Shown here one piece after another: positions 28,257 through 37,881 of a stretch of DNA of 50,475 bases. The notes under the pieces are model-generated. The model saw nothing but the letters and a program-made list of their open reading frames with translations. It ran no database searches and was not told the DNA's origin. The stretch lies in contig JAJFTD010000025.1 in NCBI GenBank assembly GCA_021373255.1, forward strand, positions 1 to 50,475, written 5' to 3'. The DNA comes from a bacterium. Its GTDB lineage: Bacteria > Armatimonadota > UBA5829. A program made the translations under genes and the position numbers. The number at the start of each line of letters is the position of its first letter. Position 1 is the stretch's first letter.

Positions 28257-29207
28257 ATGGATAACTGGCAGCCCTCGACTCTTTCGTGGTCATTTTCGAG
28301 GAAGACGCATTTCGACTCCTGCCGCCGGCATTACTTCTTTCACAGGTTCTGGGGACAGGACCCAAAGGCGAGGTGGCGGCTGTTTGAAATGCGCAACCTC
28401 ACCACAATCACGATGCTCCGGGGCCAAGTGGTGCATTCGGTTATAGCAAATGCGCTGCAGTCGATACGTTATGACATCAAACTCGACGCCAAGACAGCCC
28501 GTGCAAATATAACCGCGCTGCTCCGCGAACGTTACGGTGAGTCCGCCAGGCGCCTTTGGCACATAGACAACCGCCCACCGGGGCGCAAAGCCTCGGAGAT
28601 CACAAGCCTGTTGGAGCACTATTATAACTTTCCCAACCTAAATCAGCGGGCAAGAGATGCTCAGCAGGTGGCATGGCAGTGTATTACGAACCTTATTGAG
28701 TCCGATTTCTGGGCCAATATCGAGAACTCGGACCCGGGAGAATGGCGGGAGGTGGAAGAGTCACATTTTCCATCATTCGAGCTTGAGGGAATCCAGGTTT
28801 ATACCACTATAGACTTCGCGCATGCTAATGGTTCTCCCACGATTATCGACTGGAAGACAGGCACCCCGAGCGAACAGGACCGCAGGCAGCTTACCCTCTA
28901 CTCATTATATGCCCAAAAGCGTTGGGAATGGGACCCCCTTCAAACCACTCTTCAAGCCGTGTATCTGCAGCCTGAGCTTGTGGTGGAATCATTCACGCCA
29001 AGCCTTGCAGATTTGGAGTCTGTAACAGAAGATGTAAAAGCCAGCCTGAATGATATGGCCGAACTCGAACCTGCTTATGGACCCGCCGACATCGAGCGAT
29101 TTCCAATGACCCAGGACACCAGCAACTGCGCGTGGTGCAGGTTCCAAGGCATATGCCGCATGGCAAAACGTATTGATCTCGATTCAACTGTCGTATCACA
29201 GGATTAA
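28257..29207 (+). CDS. PD-(D/E)XK nuclease with iron-sulfur-type Cys residues (RecB/Cas4-like)
   Basis: About 316 residues. The C-terminal nuclease core is seen in YTTIDFAHANGSPTIIDWKT, with Asp, Asp and Lys at PD-(D/E)XK positions, followed by the QLTLYSLYAQ motif of RecB-family nucleases. A single Cys near the N-terminus (HFDSCRRHYFF) and three near the C-terminus (NCAWCRFQGICRM) match the split 4Fe-4S cluster of AddB, Cas4 and similar proteins. ATG 28257 with AAGGGGAG just upstream is preferred to TTG 28239. No cas genes or CRISPR array are nearby, so a role in DNA repair is more likely than in CRISPR. Confidence 0.75.
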   Translation: MDNWQPSTLSWSFSRKTHFDSCRRHYFFHRFWGQDPKARWRLFEMRNLTTITMLRGQVVHSVIANALQSIRYDIKLDAKTARANITALLRERYGESARRLWHIDNRPPGRKASEITSLLEHYYNFPNLNQRARDAQQVAWQCITNLIESDFWANIENSDPGEWREVEESHFPSFELEGIQVYTTIDFAHANGSPTIIDWKTGTPSEQDRRQLTLYSLYAQKRWEWDPLQTTLQAVYLQPELVVESFTPSLADLESVTEDVKASLNDMAELEPAYGPADIERFPMTQDTSNCAWCRFQGICRMAKRIDLDSTVVSQD

Positions 29208-29245
29208 GTTCAGCAATAACAGCCTACTATTTATAGTACAACCCA

Positions 29246-29328
29246 GCATCCTGAGCTTCGTCGAAGGGTGCGGTTAATTTTCATCACATGTCACTTCGGA
29301 GCCGCACGCTTCGACACACTCAGCATGC
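29246..29328. repeat. REP-like inverted repeat pair (CCTGAG/CTTCG type)
   Basis: A 28-base left arm (29246-29273) and a 27-base right arm (29302-29328) are near-complementary, each containing the TCGAAG core and a CTGAG or CTCAG box. This is the kind of dispersed extragenic palindrome widespread in environmental bacteria. It follows the nuclease gene and may act as its terminator. Confidence 0.6.
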
Positions 29329-29413
29329 TTGCAATGTATTTACATTGTTATCTCTCAGCTTGCCTGGTTTAGACGTGGTTTATGTTCGGATTATCGTCTA
29401 TTGAGAATCGTCG

Positions 29414-29442
29414 TTGACAGCAAGACCAAGTCGCGATATACT
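29414..29442 (+). promoter_or_regulatory. Consensus sigma-70 promoter of a non-coding RNA
   Basis: Perfect -35 TTGACA (29414-29419), 17-base spacer, -10 TATACT (29437-29442). Transcription would start at about 29449. It is one of the best promoters in the window, yet no sizeable ORF follows for 570 bases. Confidence 0.75.
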
Positions 29443-29472
29443 GACCATGACAAAGAAGGAGGTGGTGACTAC

Positions 29473-29508
29473 ATGAACTATAGTCAACGAGGTGACCGCG
29501 AAGGCTAA
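29473..29508 (+). CDS. Possible 11-codon mini-ORF inside the structured RNA
   Basis: ATG to TAA encodes MNYSQRGDREG. A strong GGAGG lies 10 bases upstream, but this ribosome site is paired in the predicted stem 29460-29466/29529-29535, and the stop codon is in the stem 29503-29508/29513-29518. It could be a leader peptide, or chance. Confidence 0.3.
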   Translation: MNYSQRGDREG

Positions 29509-29596
29509 TATTTTAGCCGTGGTCAGAGACCACCTTGGTCATGAATGTTGGCCTCCACGCGGGAATCCTCAACTATCCGTGGGGGTAGGAAAACCA

Positions 29597-29634
29597 GGCC
29601 GTCGTCCTGCAATGGGCGGCGGCCCTTTATTTTG
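29597..29634 (+). terminator. Rho-independent terminator of the candidate RNA
   Basis: An 11-base-pair stem, GGCCGTCGTCC (29597-29607) with GGGCGGCGGCC (29614-29624) including two G-U pairs, a six-base loop, then CTTTATTTT. Confidence 0.75.
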
Positions 29635-29674
29635 TCTGCCTCACTGTAAAAAATCTCTACATTACTGCCGATAA

Positions 29675-29756
29675 CCTATGGCATAACACATCCATGTGAT
29701 GCAAGCATGTGTTTCATAGGTGGCACCAATGTTTGTGAACCCCATTCAACAAACAT
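29675..29756. other. Two adjacent hairpins in the greA upstream region
   Basis: Hairpin 1: CCTATG (29675-29680) and AACACAT (29685-29691) pair with ATGTGTT (29707-29713) and CATAGG (29715-29720). Hairpin 2: ATGTTTGT (29729-29736) pairs with ACAAACAT (29749-29756). The rest of 29757-29841 is rich in GCATGCAT-type palindromes and holds no gene. Confidence 0.5.
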
Positions 29757-29841
29757 ACAGGGAACTTTGAGAGGCATGCATACGTCTCATGCATAAGCGT
29801 AAAGAAGCGTGCATGTTTGTCGCAGATTGTGACCTATTCGT

Positions 29842-29870
29842 TTGATAGAGCACGCCATTGTTGGTATAAT
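29842..29870 (+). promoter_or_regulatory. Promoter of greA
   Basis: TTGATA (29842-29847), 17-base spacer, TATAAT (29865-29870). Transcription should begin near 29877, giving a leader of about 135 bases that contains the hairpin at 29896-29940. Confidence 0.7.
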
Positions 29871-29895
29871 TACCAAGAAATGGTGGAAACCTACT

Positions 29896-29946
29896 ATCAA
29901 GCACTGACTAAGTCACATTCTGGCGAGGTCGGTGCTTGATTCATTT
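29896..29946 (+). promoter_or_regulatory. Leader hairpin before greA, possible attenuator
   Basis: ATCAAGCACTGAC (29896-29908) pairs with GTCGGTGCTTGAT (29928-29940), 13 pairs with one T-G wobble, followed by TCATTT. greA leaders in some bacteria carry terminators that adjust GreA level; here the T-run is weak. Confidence 0.45.
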
Positions 29947-30012
29947 AATCATGCGGTATTGTAGAGGGATCGCGAAGGACAATAATATCCTTTTTGAAGG
30001 AGTGATGATCCG

Positions 30013-30495
30013 ATGCAAGCGGAAAGAGAAATCCTATTGACCGCTGCCGGTCTGAAGAAGATAGAAGACGAACTGGAGCAGTTGAGAACAGTTCATCGGA
30101 AGCGCGTGGCAGACCGCATCCGTGAGTCTATACAACTTGGCGTCGAGATCAGTGAGAACACTGAATTTGACGATGCCAAGAATGAACAGGCCTTCATAGA
30201 AGGCCGCATAGATGAACTCAGAGAGATACTCGCAACTGCACGAGTGATAGAAGACGGTGATGTGCTCACCGACAGCGTGGGCATAGGCTCGATAGTCAGG
30301 GTAAGGGACACGGAGACAAACGACGACTGGGAATGGACTATTGTCGGCACCGTCGAAGCCAATCCCGCCGAGGACAAGATATCAAACGAATCGCCGGTTG
30401 GCCAGGCACTGATAGGTAAACGGATCGGGGAAATTGCTACCGTGGATATCCCCGCCGGCAGAGCGAAGTACGAGATAATCGGCATACGCAAGTAA
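30013..30495 (+). CDS. greA: Transcript cleavage factor GreA
   Basis: A 160-residue factor that enters the RNA polymerase secondary channel and stimulates cleavage of backtracked transcripts. The N-terminal coiled coil (LTAAGLKKIEDELEQLRTVH) carries the acidic tip in GVEISENTEFDDAKNEQAFI, and the C-terminal FKBP-like domain holds SPVGQALIGKRIGEIATVDI. Length and domain order are standard. GAAGGAG upstream of ATG 30013 supports the start. It precedes lysS, a common pairing. Confidence 0.94.
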   Translation: MQAEREILLTAAGLKKIEDELEQLRTVHRKRVADRIRESIQLGVEISENTEFDDAKNEQAFIEGRIDELREILATARVIEDGDVLTDSVGIGSIVRVRDTETNDDWEWTIVGTVEANPAEDKISNESPVGQALIGKRIGEIATVDIPAGRAKYEIIGIRK

Positions 30496-30550
30496 TGAAG
30501 ACTTGTGCCTAAAACTCTCGCTTAGAGGAAATTCGGACTGAACAGGCGAA

Positions 30551-30588
30551 TAAACCTGCGGGGAGCCAATCCCCGCAGGTTTATCTTT
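30551..30588 (+). terminator. Stem-loop between greA and lysS
   Basis: TAAACCTGCGGGG (30551-30563) pairs with CCCCGCAGGTTTA (30571-30583) over seven bases, then TCTTTG. The T-run is modest, so it may be partial. Confidence 0.65.
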
Positions 30589-30637
30589 GTACGAGACAAA
30601 AAAACCGATATTCGGATCATATAACTTGGAGTTTACA

Positions 30638-32194
30638 TTGGAAGAACATCTGATACCTGAAGACGAACTTATTAGTGCGAGGGTCGAAAAGCTTGACCGG
30701 ATGAAAGAACTGGCAGGAGACCCGTTCGCTGTTGAGCGATATGAGCGCTACGCGCTTGTCAAGGCAATTTCTGGTGACGAAAAAAACATCGAGCCTTACA
30801 GCACAGACGTTATGGCTGCTTATGAAGACGAGCCTCAAGCCAGTGATAGCGCGCCCGAGATCAACGTGAGCCTGGCGGGACGCGTTGTGTCACAGCGAAT
30901 CATGGGCAAAGCATCGTTTGCTCATATACTTGACCGCAAGGGTCGCATACAGGTCTATTTCAAGAGCGATGAGATGGGTGACGCCTATGAGTTGGTAAAA
31001 CTCTTGGACTTGGGCGACTTCATCGGCGTGAAGGGCTTTATCTTCCGCACCCGCACGGGGGAGATATCTGTGCACGTGAAGGAGTTCACAGTGCTCAGCA
31101 AGTCAGTGCGGCCGATACCGTTTGGTAAGGAAAAGGGTGACCAGCGCTGGTATGGTCTTCAAGACATTGAGCAGCGTTACCGCCAGAGACACGTAGACCT
31201 GATCACAAGCCAGGAAAGCCGCGACATATTCGAAAAGCGCAGCAAAATCGTTCGAGCGGTGCGTGAATATTATGATAACCGGGGTTACCTCGAAGTCGAA
31301 ACTCCTGTGCTGCAGGCTGTGGCTGGTGGCGCAGCGGCAAGGCCGTTCAACACGTATCACAACGCCCTTGAGCACGAGTTCCATCTCAGGATATCTTTGG
31401 AGCTTTACCTGAAGCGTCTGATCGTGGGTGGTCTGGAGCGTGTATATGAAGTAGGCCGGGTTTTCCGCAATGAGGGACTGTCGCCAAGGCACAACCCTGA
31501 GTTCACCCTACTGGAAAGCTACGAAGCATACGCTGATCTGGATGATGTGATGGGACTGGTCGAGGGGCTGTTCCAGCACGTTTGCAAAACACTTTACGGC
31601 GGCACGACGTTTGAATATCAGGGTCAGACCATAGACGTGGCAGGCCCGTGGCGACGGCTTCCGATGCTCGCGGGCATCGAAGAGTACGCGGGGGTGAAGC
31701 CTGAGGCATTCAGCACGCTGGAAAGCGCACTCGCGGCGATGGAGAGTCTCGGAATTCCGACGGAGCATGAGACGTTGATCGGCGGAATCATCGAGAAAAT
31801 CCACGAGCGGTTCGTGCAGCCCAACCTAATCCAGCCGACATTCATAACCGATTTTCCGCTGGAGACTTCCCCACTGGCCAAGAAGCGGCAGGATAACCCG
31901 AACCTCACCCGCAGGTTCGAGGTATACATAGCCAAGCAGGAGACAGGCAACGCATTCAGCGAAATCAACGATCCGTTCGATCAGCGCGAGAGGTTCGAGG
32001 CGCAGGTGAAGCTGAAGGCATCAGGCGATGAGGAAGCCCACCCGATGGACGAAGACTTCATCCGTGCGCTGGAATACGGCATGCCCCCCACCGGTGGACT
32101 GGGAATAGGCATCGACCGCCTGGTGATGATCTTCTGCAACCAGGACAACCTCCGCGACGTTCTCCTCTTCCCGCAGATGAAGCCGGAGAAGTAG
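30638..32194 (+). CDS. lysS: Lysyl-tRNA synthetase, class II
   Basis: About 518 residues. An N-terminal OB-fold (VSLAGRVVSQRIMGKASFAH) binds the anticodon. The class II core shows motif 1 (REYYDNRGYLEVETPVLQ), motif 2 (VFRNEGLSPRHNPEFTLLE) and motif 3 (GGLGIGIDRLVMIF). The frame runs back to TTG 30587 inside the terminator loop region, which is unlikely; TTG 30638 has GGAG at a six-base spacing and is preferred. A segment of about 30 residues (DEKNIEPYSTDVMAAYEDEP) ahead of the OB fold is longer than in most bacterial LysS. The enzyme charges tRNA-Lys. Confidence 0.93.
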   Translation: MEEHLIPEDELISARVEKLDRMKELAGDPFAVERYERYALVKAISGDEKNIEPYSTDVMAAYEDEPQASDSAPEINVSLAGRVVSQRIMGKASFAHILDRKGRIQVYFKSDEMGDAYELVKLLDLGDFIGVKGFIFRTRTGEISVHVKEFTVLSKSVRPIPFGKEKGDQRWYGLQDIEQRYRQRHVDLITSQESRDIFEKRSKIVRAVREYYDNRGYLEVETPVLQAVAGGAAARPFNTYHNALEHEFHLRISLELYLKRLIVGGLERVYEVGRVFRNEGLSPRHNPEFTLLESYEAYADLDDVMGLVEGLFQHVCKTLYGGTTFEYQGQTIDVAGPWRRLPMLAGIEEYAGVKPEAFSTLESALAAMESLGIPTEHETLIGGIIEKIHERFVQPNLIQPTFITDFPLETSPLAKKRQDNPNLTRRFEVYIAKQETGNAFSEINDPFDQRERFEAQVKLKASGDEEAHPMDEDFIRALEYGMPPTGGLGIGIDRLVMIFCNQDNLRDVLLFPQMKPEK

Positions 32195-32214
32195 TGACTG
32201 ATATAGATGACTAG

Positions 32215-32247
32215 GGAGCCCGCGTGATGTTGCATCAAGCGGGCTCC
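32215..32247 (+). terminator. Hairpin after lysS
   Basis: GGAGCCCGC (32215-32223) with GCGGGCTCC (32239-32247), extended by TGATG (32225-32229) with CATCA (32233-32237). A 14-pair stem without a clear T-run. It also overlaps the start of the small ORF at 32227 and would hide its ribosome site. Confidence 0.5.
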
Positions 32248-32370
32248 GATGATAAATTATTGCCGATGGATCGGGATCTGCGATCTCTGATTGCTTACAA
32301 AGAAGAATTGCAAAGCTGGCTAGAAGAACAAGAGAACAAAACAAAGCCTGTTATGTCAACACTTAGTTGA
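32227..32370 (+). CDS. Possible small ORF upstream of the reverse transcriptase
   Basis: A 47-codon frame beginning at ATG 32227 with GGGAG eight bases upstream. The second half is a charged amphipathic helix (LRSLIAYKEELQSWLEEQEN) that looks coding. It ends 31 bases before the reverse transcriptase start on the same strand, so it could be its partner. Against it, its start lies in the lysS hairpin. An internal ATG at 32269 is a possible shorter start. Confidence 0.35.
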   Translation: MLHQAGSDDKLLPMDRDLRSLIAYKEELQSWLEEQENKTKPVMSTLS

Positions 32371-32401
32371 ATTGCAGGCAAACAATAAGAGGCATCGGTA
32401 A

Positions 32402-33565
32402 GTGCACACCAGCAGCAGCCCCCTACTTGAATCTATTATCTCAGATGACTGCCTGACCGCCGCAATCCATGACATTCACCGTGCTGGGGCTGCAATTGGC
32501 GTTGATCATCAAAGCCTTAAGGAATTTTCTTCCAATGCCGATGCAGAAATCAAACGATTGCGTGACGATGTTCTTCAGGGATCTTATGTGCTTCTCCCGC
32601 TGAGGAAAGCTTATATTCCGAAGAATAACGGTGGTAAACGATTAATTGGTGTACCGTGCATCCGAGACAGAATTCTCGGACGGTCCCTCGTTCATAATCT
32701 CAACAATTTGCTTGAATCATATTGGCTTGATGTGAGTCATGGCTATCGTCCGAAGCATTCAGTGCAAACTGCCAGCGCTATGATTCAAGATATCACCTCT
32801 TCTGGAGCAGCTTGTGTGGTTCATATAGATATCAAAGATTTCTTTCCTTCAGTGGACCACAATCTTTTGCACAACATCTTGAATAGTACAATTAAGGATC
32901 AGTATATAGTTGAATTGCTCCAAAAAATCATTCTCTCTCAACGTTGGCACGACACTGAAGAACCCTTCACGCAAGGGCTTTGCCAAGGATTGCCGGTATC
33001 TCCACTTGCAGCAAACGCCTATCTACACCAATTTGATAGTTGGTTATCCAATATCTGCAGCAGTGTACGATATGCTGACGACGTTGTGATATTCTGCACC
33101 ACTAGAGAGAAAGCCAGCCAGATACACGCAGAGAGTGTAGATTTCCTACAGACATCTTTACTCCTAGATTGCAATCGTGATCCTAAGAAGTGTTATATTC
33201 GCCAAGTAGAGGATGGGTTCGATTTCCTAGGGCTCCGCTTCCTCGGCGATAAAGTAGAGCTGACACGCGATGCAGCAACCAAATTGCAGGTAGATATTGA
33301 GATCATCACTTCCACAGCCGAGAACATAGCTGATCTAGTAACGATGAGCAAAAATCGGATATTTGGATGGGCACACAACTACTGTATGGTAAACGAATGT
33401 AGCGAGATCGACAGATTAAACTCAATGGTCTGTCAGCGTCTGAAGCATCGCTTCGACGAACTCTCCTGTGGCACATCAACCAGTGAGGTTCGCCATTGGT
33501 ATGAAGAATTAGCAGCTTCAAGCGTAATCAAGATCTTCAGAAAGGTCAGAAACCAAAGAATATAG
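32402..33565 (+). CDS. Group II-intron-like reverse transcriptase without endonuclease domain
   Basis: A 387-residue RNA-directed DNA polymerase. In order: RT0/RT1 (YVLLPLRKAYIPKNNGGKRL, GVPCIRDRILGRSLVHNLNN), RT2 (HGYRPKHSVQTA), RT3 with catalytic Asp (VVHIDIKDFFPSVDHNLL), RT4 (QGLPVSPLAANAYLHQFD), RT5 with the YADD box (VRYADDVVIF), RT6/7 (GFDFLGLRF) and a thumb-like C-terminus (KNRIFGWAHNYCMVNE). No HNH endonuclease follows and no intron domain V was seen, so it is not a complete mobile intron. QG-x3-SP differs from the DGR signature. Start is GTG 32402 with AGAGG upstream. AT-richer than lysS, suggesting transfer. Possible roles are defence or DNA repair. Confidence 0.85.
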   Translation: MHTSSSPLLESIISDDCLTAAIHDIHRAGAAIGVDHQSLKEFSSNADAEIKRLRDDVLQGSYVLLPLRKAYIPKNNGGKRLIGVPCIRDRILGRSLVHNLNNLLESYWLDVSHGYRPKHSVQTASAMIQDITSSGAACVVHIDIKDFFPSVDHNLLHNILNSTIKDQYIVELLQKIILSQRWHDTEEPFTQGLCQGLPVSPLAANAYLHQFDSWLSNICSSVRYADDVVIFCTTREKASQIHAESVDFLQTSLLLDCNRDPKKCYIRQVEDGFDFLGLRFLGDKVELTRDAATKLQVDIEIITSTAENIADLVTMSKNRIFGWAHNYCMVNECSEIDRLNSMVCQRLKHRFDELSCGTSTSEVRHWYEELAASSVIKIFRKVRNQRI

Positions 33566-33579
33566 ATATTGATACAGCT

Positions 33580-34383
33580 CTACAAAAAGATTTCATCTAC
33601 ACAACCTGCAGGAATTCCAATGATCCCACGCTTTGCGATGTTTCCATTCTCATCGCATCGAAACTTGCTCTTTAAATCAACCATTGATCGCCCGCAAAAT
33701 ACGGTTCCGTTAAGAAAATCGGCACAATGCCCAACTATGTGATCGGCCATCCGCTGTTCCCAACACGAATCATTTTCAATGAAGTTGATATTAGATTCCA
33801 GCATTCTATATTCTCTAAACCGATCCTGCTGATCGCGAACAAGGCGTATGAAATAATTCTGAATGCTTGTTTGTTGATGCTTTCCGTTACTCATTCGATC
33901 GAGCCACATTGCACCACGTTTACGTGCCTTGCGAAGATCCAGTTCAAAAGCCTGCATAATATTCTGAATGAACATAGCTCTACATCGTGTATCAGCTTGA
34001 GTCTTTCCCCATAATTGCTCATCTGCGTTCTGCACGAATGATAAGTTCATTACGCAATCACCCTGTCCTGCTGCTACAATTATCCTCAGGCTGTCTAGCG
34101 ACAAGGCAAGTTGGATAATATCGTTAGTGAGATCTATAATCTCTATTGTATTCAGGTGTTGCAAACAATCATCAGTTTCCTTCTGTCCGCCAGTCAATGC
34201 TTTTTTCAGTCCACTATGCTTTATCTCTTGTTTAACATTAACTTTATAGGCCTTGTGAATCTGTCGCCACCCTTCCTCTAGCTTCTGCCGATCGTCCTCG
34301 TTGATATAATAACCGCCAAGGACAAACCAACTGCTATCGTATTTGGAAAGAGATCCACTTTCATCACCATAGAAATATATCAT
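33580..34383 (-). CDS. DUF3800 protein (putative RNase H-like nuclease)
   Basis: A 267-residue protein. The N-terminus IYFYGDESGSLSKYDSSWF is the DUF3800 hallmark with adjacent Asp and Glu, and WFVLGGYYINEDDRQKLEEG follows. A conserved C-terminal acidic position lies in RMADHIVGHCADFLNG. The family is predicted to have an RNase H fold and is often seen near defence or mobile genes. It converges on the reverse transcriptase with 14 bases between stops, and has similar AT-rich composition, so the two probably arrived together. The start ATG 34383 lacks a good ribosome site. RNase H-like activity would complement reverse transcription, but this is inference. Confidence 0.8.
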   Translation of the reverse strand: MIYFYGDESGSLSKYDSSWFVLGGYYINEDDRQKLEEGWRQIHKAYKVNVKQEIKHSGLKKALTGGQKETDDCLQHLNTIEIIDLTNDIIQLALSLDSLRIIVAAGQGDCVMNLSFVQNADEQLWGKTQADTRCRAMFIQNIMQAFELDLRKARKRGAMWLDRMSNGKHQQTSIQNYFIRLVRDQQDRFREYRMLESNINFIENDSCWEQRMADHIVGHCADFLNGTVFCGRSMVDLKSKFRCDENGNIAKRGIIGIPAGCVDEIFL

Positions 34384-34488
34384 AATCTAGCCAATCAATT
34401 GGAAAGACGAACATAATAATATCTGTGGAGTTCTAGTAACGAGGGGTTTTCCAACTGGGTCGATTGCCCACGTACCAACCCAATCCGT

Positions 34489-34568
34489 AAGTTTGCGTTG
34501 TGCGTTGAGGGTCTGCGCCGCTGGCTAATCTTTCGGCGGCGCAGACCCTCAAGGGACAACGCAAACTT
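34489..34568. repeat. Long hairpin (80 bp) upstream of the DUF3800 gene
   Basis: AAGTTTGCGTTGT (34489-34501) pairs with ACAACGCAAACTT (34556-34568), and TTGAGGGTCTGCGCCG (34505-34520) pairs with CGGCGCAGACCCTCAA (34537-34552). That is 29 pairs, one 3x3 internal loop and a 16-base loop. It lies in the 630-base gap 34384-35013, which otherwise has no supported gene. Confidence 0.75.
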
Positions 34569-34851
34569 TCCAAAAGATAGACGGCTATTCCTAATTTACA
34601 CAGACGCTGAAACTGCAGCAACCAAGGCGATGGGCCAGAGGTGGAATGTCCTGTGGGCACTCTGCACATCGTCGCATGGCAGCTATATTAGTATAGCGGG
34701 CTGGCTCCACATTGTCAATAAGCAAATTTCCATATTTTATGCAATCTTTGCCAACATCTTACACTGTTCGGCAGAGTTAAACTTAGTAATTGGGTTTCTA
34801 TCTGATATGGATCACCAACAAATGGATGATCTGTATCAGAATGCAGTAGTA

Positions 34852-34882
34852 ATGTAAAGTTACCGCCCATACTTTACATTTT
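34852..34882 (+). terminator. Hairpin with T-run
   Basis: ATGTAAAGT (34852-34860) and ACTTTACAT (34871-34879) with ten bases between and TTT after. It could end a transcript from the gap or mark the edge of the reverse-transcriptase island. Confidence 0.55.
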
Positions 34883-35013
34883 CCATGCTTCGGCTCCTTC
34901 TTTCACCCCAACAACCTCCCAACTCTAATACTTCGCGGGCGTATGCCCCGAAGGGTAATGCCGAAGCCCATGCCTGGGTGGTGATTTCTGAATCATATTT
35001 GTCGCTGTGATAG

Positions 35014-35976
35014 TTATGCCTTCCTGCTAACTAAACTCCGCTCCCCATCATCTAGCAGACAGTTTTCAATACATCTGGGGGCACAGTCGCCGTGGCAGGG
35101 TTCTATGTGGATTGTTACCGTGGAACCAGTGTAGCGGTTGCGGATATCGCAAGTCATATCTTCAGTGATCTGGTGCGACTCTTCAACGGACATTCCCGAG
35201 CTCACACGCATGTGGAACTCTATGAATCTATCCGATCCGGCCTTGCGAGTGCGCAGGTGGTGGAATCCTCTTACCGAAGGACTATAACTGCGGATGTAAT
35301 CCCGTATCCAGTTCTCTTCATCCTCCGGCAGGCTCACATCCAGCAGGTCGCGGGCGGATTCCATAGTAAGGTGATAAGCGGCCTTGATGATCAGCAGGGC
35401 TACAAGAATAGCGGCAACGGGGTCCAACCAATGGAAATGTACTCCCTTGAACACAGCCTCCGCAAGCCACATCAAGGCAAGGCCGCCCATGACACCAGCC
35501 GATGTGTATACATCGGTGCGCAGGTGCCAGGCATCAGCTTGAAGAGCCACGGAATCAGTTTCTTTGCCGACTTTGAAGAGCCTGTGAGATACCATCATAT
35601 TCGCCAACGCAGAGGCAAGCATCACCCCGACACCCCAGCCGACTGCTCCCAGCGGTTCAGGATGTAGAAGTTTCTTTACTGCCTCAAAGATGATCCATGC
35701 TGCGGCGAAGAATATTAGTATGGCTTCTACGGTGCCGGAAATGTTCTCTACTTTACCATGGCCGAACGGGTGCTCCTTGTCCGCCGGTTGGCCGGACGTC
35801 CGTACAGCAATCCATGCGATAATGGCGGCAAGAAGGTCCACTCCCGAGTGAATGGCCTCCGATATCACCGAAACCGATCCGATAAATAAGCCTATTGCCA
35901 GCTTTAGTAACACCAGAGTGGTGTTCGATATTACAGAAAGCAGAGCAACGTTAGCCTTGCGTTTTGCATTGTCCAC
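35014..35976 (-). CDS. Cation diffusion facilitator family transporter
   Basis: About 320 residues with six membrane helices in the CDF pattern. The first metal site is SEAIHSGVDLLAAIIAW (H and D), and the second is in LQADAWHLRTDVYTSAGV (H and D). A cytoplasmic C-terminal domain follows (FIEFHMRVSSGMSVEESHQI and VTIHIEPC). A Cys-rich tail (CHGDCAPRCIENC) may bind metal. It exports divalent ions such as Zn, Fe, Mn or Co in exchange for protons; the ion is not determinable. GTG 35976 with GGAGG upstream is preferred to ATG 36036, which falls in a hairpin. It lies downstream of dsbD. Confidence 0.88.
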   Translation of the reverse strand: MDNAKRKANVALLSVISNTTLVLLKLAIGLFIGSVSVISEAIHSGVDLLAAIIAWIAVRTSGQPADKEHPFGHGKVENISGTVEAILIFFAAAWIIFEAVKKLLHPEPLGAVGWGVGVMLASALANMMVSHRLFKVGKETDSVALQADAWHLRTDVYTSAGVMGGLALMWLAEAVFKGVHFHWLDPVAAILVALLIIKAAYHLTMESARDLLDVSLPEDEENWIRDYIRSYSPSVRGFHHLRTRKAGSDRFIEFHMRVSSGMSVEESHQITEDMTCDIRNRYTGSTVTIHIEPCHGDCAPRCIENCLLDDGERSLVSRKA

Positions 35977-36006
35977 TCCTGAATTACCTCCAATAGTGTG
36001 CAGAAA

Positions 36007-36041
36007 GCCCTGTGAGACTGATATATCCAGTCCCACAGGGC
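36007..36041 (-). terminator. Terminator between dsbD and the CDF gene
   Basis: GCCCTGTG (36007-36014) and GACTG (36016-36020) pair with CAGTC (36028-36032) and CACAGGGC (36034-36041). On the minus strand CTTTCTG follows. It probably ends the dsbD transcript or attenuates reading into the transporter gene. Confidence 0.65.
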
Positions 36042-36144
36042 TATATCGTCCTGCTGCCTCAACTCCAGGCCCAGCCGCACCTTTCCTACAAGGCCGCCTG
36101 TTCTACAACAACAGTATATTCCACCATAAAAACACTGTCAAACG

Positions 36145-37881
36145 CTACTGAACCGCCTTAATCCGCCGGATCATCTCCTTGGAATTGACGAGCCCCGCAA
36201 TTCTTAAGGATCTTATCTCATGACCCGATTTGTCGATAAAGATTACTGTGGGATACCCATTGACTTGATATCGCTTGCCCGCAGCAATGACACTTGGAGC
36301 CCGCGAATCCGTGCCGTCCATGCGCAGTTTTATGAAGTCCTTCGCTGCATCCGCTACGCGCGGATCGCTGAACGGGCCTTTCTCGAGTTGGCGGCAATCA
36401 ATGCACCACTTGGCGGTAAAGTCGATCATCACTGGTTTACCCGATGCCGCCGCTGATGCCACTGCTTTGGGAGTATACGGCTGCCATTCCAGTTTGGCGT
36501 GGTGCGGCATCACCATCGAGACCGCCAGCACCACAGCTACCGCACACCCCACCCTGGCGATGGACGCAACCACACGGCTGGATTTGATGGAATTTTCGAA
36601 AATTCCCATATATACGCCAGCAGCCAACAACACCAACGGGACCAAATACCTGCCGGTGTTCTCAGGCGATACAGTGGACATGAAATAGGCCGCAGCGCCC
36701 AAAAGCAAAAAACCCGCCAGCTTTTTCACAGCCACCATCCACATCCCCGGCACAGGCATCTTCGCTGAAAATGCCGCAAGCAGGAATAATGGGGTCCCAA
36801 GTCCTAGAGATAAAGTAAAAAACAAAAAGAACCCCATCACGGGGCTCCCAATCTTTGCAACATAGAGTAGAAGCCCGAGTATAGGTGGCCCCACACATGG
36901 CGCGGCAACCACTCCAAACACCAGCCCCATAATAAGCGCGCCCAGCACCCCGCCTCTACCCGATGATTTGCGCAAAATAAACGCGGGCGGTTGAAGCTCA
37001 TATAGCCCAAACATCGAAAGTGACAGCACCACCAGCACGAGAGCAATCCCAATCACAACCAGTGGGCTTTGCATTGCAGCACCAAACACACCGCCGGTCG
37101 ATGCAGCTACGGCACCGAGAATAGAATAGGTAAGTGCCAACCCCAGGACATATACCGCCGCCAACCCTGCCACCTGTCTCGCGCCGGTGCCGGACTTGCC
37201 CTGCCCACTGAAATAGCCTACAGTCACAGGGATCATCGGGTATACGCAAGGGGTGAACGCCAACAAAAGGCCGAAGAAATAGAGCATCACAAGGCGCGAA
37301 AGCAGGCTTGCCCCGGCCAATCTTCCAGCCAGCGTACCTGCCTCATCACCGTCTGAAGATGCAAATATCGTCGGGTTTACCGGTTTAGCTTTTTCGCCCG
37401 ACTTCACAATCTTCGCTGTGATCTTAGCCTTGCTAACCTCCGGTGGGAAGCACTGATCGTTCTTGCATGCCTGTGTGTTGAGTGTAGATGTGATCACTGC
37501 AGTGCCGGGCTTTATGCTCTTGGAAGCATGGCCATTCACCTTGATCACAAATTTGCCTTCATACACAGGGAGCTTTTCTCCGGCAAAGGATTTGCGAATG
37601 GCCTTGGGGTAGACGGGCTGATCGAATTTGATCCCAGCCGGAGCCGAAAGAGTTAGTTTGGCGGGATAAAGCGCGGCTTTATCGTGGGCTCCGATATGGT
37701 AGCCCTTCTTGATTGTTCCGACCACGGCAAGCTGGAATTCGCTCCCGGCTTTGATCTTGTCGACAGATAGATACATCTTGCTCGACACAATACGCCCGGG
37801 CGCTCCGAACTGTGCGAACGCCGGCCCGGTAATGGTCAGAATTGCTATGAGTAAGATAATGGCGAGCTTATATGTGCGCAT
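36145..37881 (-). CDS. dsbD: Thiol:disulfide interchange protein DsbD
   Basis: A 578-residue inner-membrane protein that passes electrons from thioredoxin to periplasmic partners. The signal peptide ends at AFA-QFG. The periplasmic alpha domain has the Cys pair QACKNDQCFPP. Eight membrane helices carry the membrane Cys in FTPCVYPMIP and AAPCVGPPILG. The C-terminal thioredoxin-like gamma domain has IDFTAKWCIDCRQLE. All six redox Cys are present, so it should be fully active. Its presence supports a diderm envelope or at least thiol chemistry outside the membrane. Confidence 0.93.
   Translation of the reverse strand: MRTYKLAIILLIAILTITGPAFAQFGAPGRIVSSKMYLSVDKIKAGSEFQLAVVGTIKKGYHIGAHDKAALYPAKLTLSAPAGIKFDQPVYPKAIRKSFAGEKLPVYEGKFVIKVNGHASKSIKPGTAVITSTLNTQACKNDQCFPPEVSKAKITAKIVKSGEKAKPVNPTIFASSDGDEAGTLAGRLAGASLLSRLVMLYFFGLLLAFTPCVYPMIPVTVGYFSGQGKSGTGARQVAGLAAVYVLGLALTYSILGAVAASTGGVFGAAMQSPLVVIGIALVLVVLSLSMFGLYELQPPAFILRKSSGRGGVLGALIMGLVFGVVAAPCVGPPILGLLLYVAKIGSPVMGFFLFFTLSLGLGTPLFLLAAFSAKMPVPGMWMVAVKKLAGFLLLGAAAYFMSTVSPENTGRYLVPLVLLAAGVYMGIFENSIKSSRVVASIARVGCAVAVVLAVSMVMPHHAKLEWQPYTPKAVASAAASGKPVMIDFTAKWCIDCRQLEKGPFSDPRVADAAKDFIKLRMDGTDSRAPSVIAAGKRYQVNGYPTVIFIDKSGHEIRSLRIAGLVNSKEMIRRIKAVQ

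Follow-up and report, generated by a model that had tools for sequence, protein, structure and literature searches.

We examined a reverse transcriptase (RT) gene and its surroundings in a 50,475-nucleotide stretch of bacterial DNA (hereafter, the window). The RT gene is flanked by lysS on one side and by a DUF3800 gene followed by a CDF transporter gene on the other. The features of the locus are listed below.

32215-32247, forward strand: terminator-like hairpin of lysS, forming the left edge of an AT-rich island and including the start of a small open reading frame (ORF)
32387-32392, forward strand: Shine-Dalgarno-like AAGAGG, 9 nt ahead of the GTG start of the RT gene (sequence)
32402-33565, forward strand: free-standing group II-like RT of 387 amino acids, with YADD and fingers-palm-thumb and without an endonuclease (RVT_1, fold)
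33580-34383, reverse strand: DUF3800 protein of 267 amino acids (PF12686, 36.8 bits; cut-off 21)
34489-34568, no strand assigned: near-perfect palindrome of 80 nt with 33-nt arms, about 105 bases upstream of the DUF3800 gene
34690-34718, reverse strand: promoter-like TTGACA-17-TATACT (consensus match only)

The GTG start of the RT ORF immediately follows an in-frame TAA. The sole Pfam domain of the encoded protein is RVT_1, which was matched at 102.9 bits, and alignment with related RTs identifies D143, D226 and D227 as the catalytic residues, with all motifs intact. No endonuclease or any other fused domain was detected by Pfam. The GIIM profile (PF08388) likewise gave no match to the window RT at an E-value of 10, whereas it does match the intron RTs L003 and L037 of the same phylum. 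These results agree with a preliminary description of the locus, in which the RT was taken to be group II-like and devoid of an endonuclease, with all catalytic motifs, YADD included. Its placement of the gene between lysS and a CDF transporter gene also holds, since both ORFs are present and orthologues of both genes could be identified; in relatives, these orthologues lie on different contigs. The window RT is the only RT of its genome, and no RT match was found in other genomes of the same genus or family at the thresholds used.

The DUF3800 gene, also present as a single copy in this genome, meets the RT gene tail to tail with 14 bases between them, as had been described, and no terminator-like site was found in the interval. 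In an alignment, the protein keeps the acidic positions of the family (D7, E8, E53, D162 and D214). An AlphaFold model, for which only 7 distant rows were available, reached a pLDDT of 42. An RNase H-like fold is reported for the family (PMC10910872), and DUF3800 proteins have been described as RNase H-fold accessory nucleases in some type V-A2 and VI-F CRISPR loci (PMC10910872; PMC12669027). No close relatives of the DUF3800 protein were found in phages, plasmids or viral contigs.

The most AT-rich part of the contig is the one containing the RT and DUF3800 genes. Its GC fraction is 0.433, compared with 0.518 for the window, and a lower value is found in just 0.5% of equally long windows. The preliminary description had considered both genes AT-richer than their neighbours, in keeping with joint transfer, and their jointly foreign-looking base composition bears this out. 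We infer a horizontal origin for the island, which was probably acquired from elsewhere. A displaced T-tract past the lysS hairpin was considered as a trace of insertion and dropped, because the lysS hairpins of genus relatives also lack T-tracts.

Upstream of the RT, a 47-codon frame had been proposed as a possible third component. The frame does exist, but we rejected it as a gene: its first codons sit within the lysS terminator hairpin, its in-frame ATG at 32265 is not preceded by a Shine-Dalgarno site and its GC content by codon position (0.37/0.51/0.34) is unlike that of the neighbouring genes. It also has no match in any family library searched.

On the other side of the island, between the CDF gene and the DUF3800 gene, lies the palindrome, which the preliminary description had missed. 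It is unique in the genome and folds far better than shuffled sequences; it may or may not be part of the RT-DUF3800 unit. As a hallmark of DUF3800 genes it was rejected, given that 20 other DUF3800 genes of the phylum have nothing comparable upstream, the sole exception being a 20-bp hairpin in L223. The DUF3800 RNA motifs of Rfam have no match here. Transcription from the promoter-like site (34718-34690, reverse strand) would cover the palindrome and then DUF3800; shuffled sequence contains sites of this kind just as often (7 found, 6.4 expected).

The intergenic segment 34600-34890 is better folded than shuffled sequences, mainly on the forward strand (z of -3.3 overall and about -4.7 in 150-nt windows), and is possibly an unannotated RNA or a decayed element. 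The short palindromic motif at 34928-34954 is matched 29 times in a genus relative (G244) and represents a dispersed repeat of the genus. A NiCo riboswitch (36026-36115, reverse strand; 41.7 bits, gathering score 37) marks the start of the CDF transporter gene and suggests that this transporter exports cobalt/nickel.

The surroundings of the RT gene were searched for intron RNA with Rfam. No group II intron RNA (D1-D4 or domain V) was found in 32100-34700 at E<=10, and no intron RNA was found in 29000-37000 at E<=1. The positive control behaved as it should: at gathering scores, intron RNA adjoins seven of eight intron-type RTs of the phylum (L003, L032, L035, L038, L043, L047 and L051). With the controls working, the earlier statement that no intron is visible at the RT is upheld to an E-value of 10.

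To place the RT among known families, we compared its fold, its profile scores and its position in trees. An AlphaFold model, based on an alignment of 27 RTs found in viral contigs, covers the full length of the protein (pLDDT 90.3, pTM 0.87) and includes a helical thumb. Among solved structures, GsI-IIC was the best match (Z of 36.6, r.m.s.d. of 4.2, 369 residues aligned, 23% identity) and G2L4 the next best fold (Z of 32.9, r.m.s.d. of 4.1, 357 residues aligned). Other group II RTs were also among the top solved matches, and the PDB sequence matches agree; a Foldseek search of viral structures returned general RTs only. In NCBIfam, the first match was TIGR04416 (group II RT/maturase) at 219 bits, which falls short of the model's cut-off (300); the family ranked second scored 87. 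Because the GsI-IIC, G2L4 and other group II RTs lead the fold matches and TIGR04416 is so far ahead, we regard the window RT as group II-like, with retron, DGR and DRT RTs being more distant from it than group II RTs.

Two trees, with 41 and 61 RTs and constructed without retron references, place the window RT alone on a long branch of about 1.9-2.1 changes per site. This branch lies outside every supported intron class, amid other intron-free RTs whose order has no support, and a branch of this length can be pulled from its true clade. The preliminary description had allowed that the RT might nest among intact group II introns; no such nesting was seen in any supported class. The combination of a long branch and intact motifs suggests, as far as sequence can tell, prolonged use of the RT in the absence of an intron. 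Searches of species genomes, viral contigs, plasmids and phages yielded no RT homologue with more than about 37% identity. The species genomes, 84,980 in number, were searched by peptide patterns, which matched one distant intron.

The RT was then compared with individual classes. Like the window RT, the group IIC intron RT GsI-IIC has the fingers-palm-thumb architecture, YADD, an N-terminal extension and no endonuclease; by contrast, the window RT is without intron RNA and a detectable GIIM, and no sequence relative is closer than about 37%. G2L4 of Pseudomonas aeruginosa, a domesticated RT of microhomology-mediated repair, is also free-standing, intron-less and group II-like. However, G2L4 has a YIDD active site and a 9-residue RT3a insertion (PMC12337344), whereas the window RT has YADD and neither a lengthened RT3a nor an insertion before motif 4. 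The top specific defence profile in PADLOC was DRT10 (UG17), at 166.6 bits. Membership in UG17/DRT10 was rejected because the same profile gives a higher score, 185 bits, to L003 and L032, two ordinary intron RTs of the phylum. Moreover, DRT10 is accompanied by a SLATT gene (PMC12632851; PMC8934634), and none adjoins the window RT, the neighbours being lysS, DUF3800 and the CDF transporter gene; the DRT10 of Eco3 has YVDD (PMC12632851), as opposed to YADD here. RT-Cas1 proteins and stand-alone CRISPR-associated RTs are likewise group II-like and without an intron. A CRISPR link was rejected, as Cas1 was not detected anywhere in the genome and no CRISPR array-like tandem repeat was found in the window. 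A DGR-type RT was also rejected: a branch with an SH-aLRT of 100 separates the window RT from the DGR-like RTs L048-L060, and these carry a TSQ motif where the window RT reads QGLPVSP. The retron St85 model scored 86.7 bits, its cut-off being 235, and the leader of the RT gene is weakly structured. The best reading of these comparisons is an orphan, long-diverged, free-standing group II-like lineage that, by the tests run, is not UG17/DRT10, G2L4, DGR or CRISPR-RT.

Several other RTs of the phylum have unusual organizations. L009, L011, L019 and L026 are short (303-370 amino acids) and have no detectable intron RNA, and the last three also lack GIIM; all four are candidates for more free-standing group II-like RTs. 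L022 (G173:C35) is a Cas6-RT-Cas1 fusion. In three different families of the phylum, proteins of ~900 residues contain a group II-like RT with YGDD (L005 in G033:C36, L056/L014 in G019:C94 and L061/L018 in G021:C1). At each of these loci the RT has a neighbouring ORF that encodes a kinase-type HGD(I/V)KPSN loop, and in L005 and L056 Pfam also matches FHA and AEP-TOTE primase domains. The kinase-FHA-RT-primase unit looks conserved. L058 (G209:C162) is an RT-AEP-TOTE primase fusion of 871 amino acids with YADD and no FHA match, the hydrophobic N terminus of which suggests membrane anchoring.

We favour the interpretation that the window RT is an intron-free group II descendant, monofunctional in trans, that shares an acquired AT-rich island with an independent DUF3800 nuclease; we give this reading a probability of roughly 0.55. 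The RT keeps what primer extension needs, and its intact motifs predict an active enzyme. Self-mobility by target-primed integration is unlikely, because the protein has no endonuclease and no detectable maturase domain. Most probably it is a monofunctional RT/DNA polymerase that works in trans, using its fingers, palm and thumb to extend primers or switch templates, with nucleic acid of the host or of an invader as the substrate. The mode of action may resemble that of the domesticated repair RT G2L4 or of stand-alone defence RTs, and template switching or end joining would be expected by analogy with GsI-IIC and G2L4. By the same kind of comparison, the RT may have a role in repair or defence. 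DUF3800 would be a separate accessory nuclease of the RNase H-fold type with a substrate of its own, transcribed from the opposite side and probably independent of the RT.

A different origin would make the RT the remnant of a group IIC-like intron behind the lysS hairpin, its ribozyme having decayed and its ORF persisting by chance. Group IIC introns insert at terminator hairpins (PMC4424553), and the RT gene begins about 155 nt past a terminator hairpin, a site of this type; intron descent at this very place is therefore possible, in line with GsI-IIC being the best fold match. Against chance persistence, the ORF is entirely intact, start signal included, and its motifs have been kept despite long divergence. 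Domain V and D1-D4 have left no trace at an E-value of 10 and GIIM is undetectable in the RT, and we therefore consider a decaying remnant unlikely.

The proposal that the RT and DUF3800 form a new system, made in the preliminary description, is bound up with a second alternative, a two-gene defence module: upon infection the RT would synthesize cDNA, and the RNase H-fold nuclease would either process the RNA-DNA product or be the effector. In retron and DRT systems, an RT is coupled to an effector. Here the two genes are adjacent, intact, AT-rich and each single copy in the genome, and a functional link is conceivable for adjacent single-copy genes that resemble each other in base composition. 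Some CRISPR loci also employ DUF3800 as an accessory nuclease (PMC10910872; PMC12669027); the accessory DUF3800 proteins of the V-A2 (Cas12a2) and VI-F loci covered there belong to the same family as that of the window, with conserved acidic residues, but the window gene has an RT as its neighbour rather than a CRISPR locus. The accessible text of these two papers describes no RT-DUF3800 pair.

If the two genes formed a module, the pair might be expected to recur. Of the 291 genomes of the phylum, 62 carry DUF3800, at 80 places in total, and these 62 genomes contain 31 RVT_1 places, in 17 of them. At none of the 79 places other than the window does an RT lie within 100 kb of DUF3800; on the one other contig carrying both, they are 105 kb apart. 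Because many of the assemblies are in pieces, a small number of pairs may have escaped detection. The flanking sequence available for 80 viral loci with related RTs also contains no DUF3800, as judged with our own profile of 18 sequences. The convergent orientation disfavours an operon, and no structured RNA stands out beside the RT. The proposal of a system is thus not borne out, and we regard the module as doubtful. Less probable still is that the RT, as the first-seen free-standing group II-like lineage outside the described classes, forms a defence module with DUF3800 and the hairpin upstream of it, the nuclease acting on RT products. Any such claim of a system is a weak one: it comes from a single instance, and recurrence, orientation and precedents give it no support. 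Finally, it is very improbable that the 154-nt leader before the RT (32248-32401) is the template RNA of a retron- or DRT-like system, and we rejected the idea: the leader can fold as a single closed structure whose 9-bp stem ends where the RT begins, and the part at 32260-32401 has a z of about -2.5, but this drops to about -1 with slightly shifted ends, no better than the regional background, and by profile scores the RT is of neither the retron nor the UG17 type.

Bacteria have repeatedly made free-standing tools of intron RTs, as in CRISPR spacer acquisition and the end joining of G2L4. What the window contains is a modest new RT lineage rather than a demonstrated new immune system, and this intact, intron-free lineage is a further candidate for such domestication. 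Should DUF3800 prove to work with the RT, the two would constitute a new combination in bacterial immunity.
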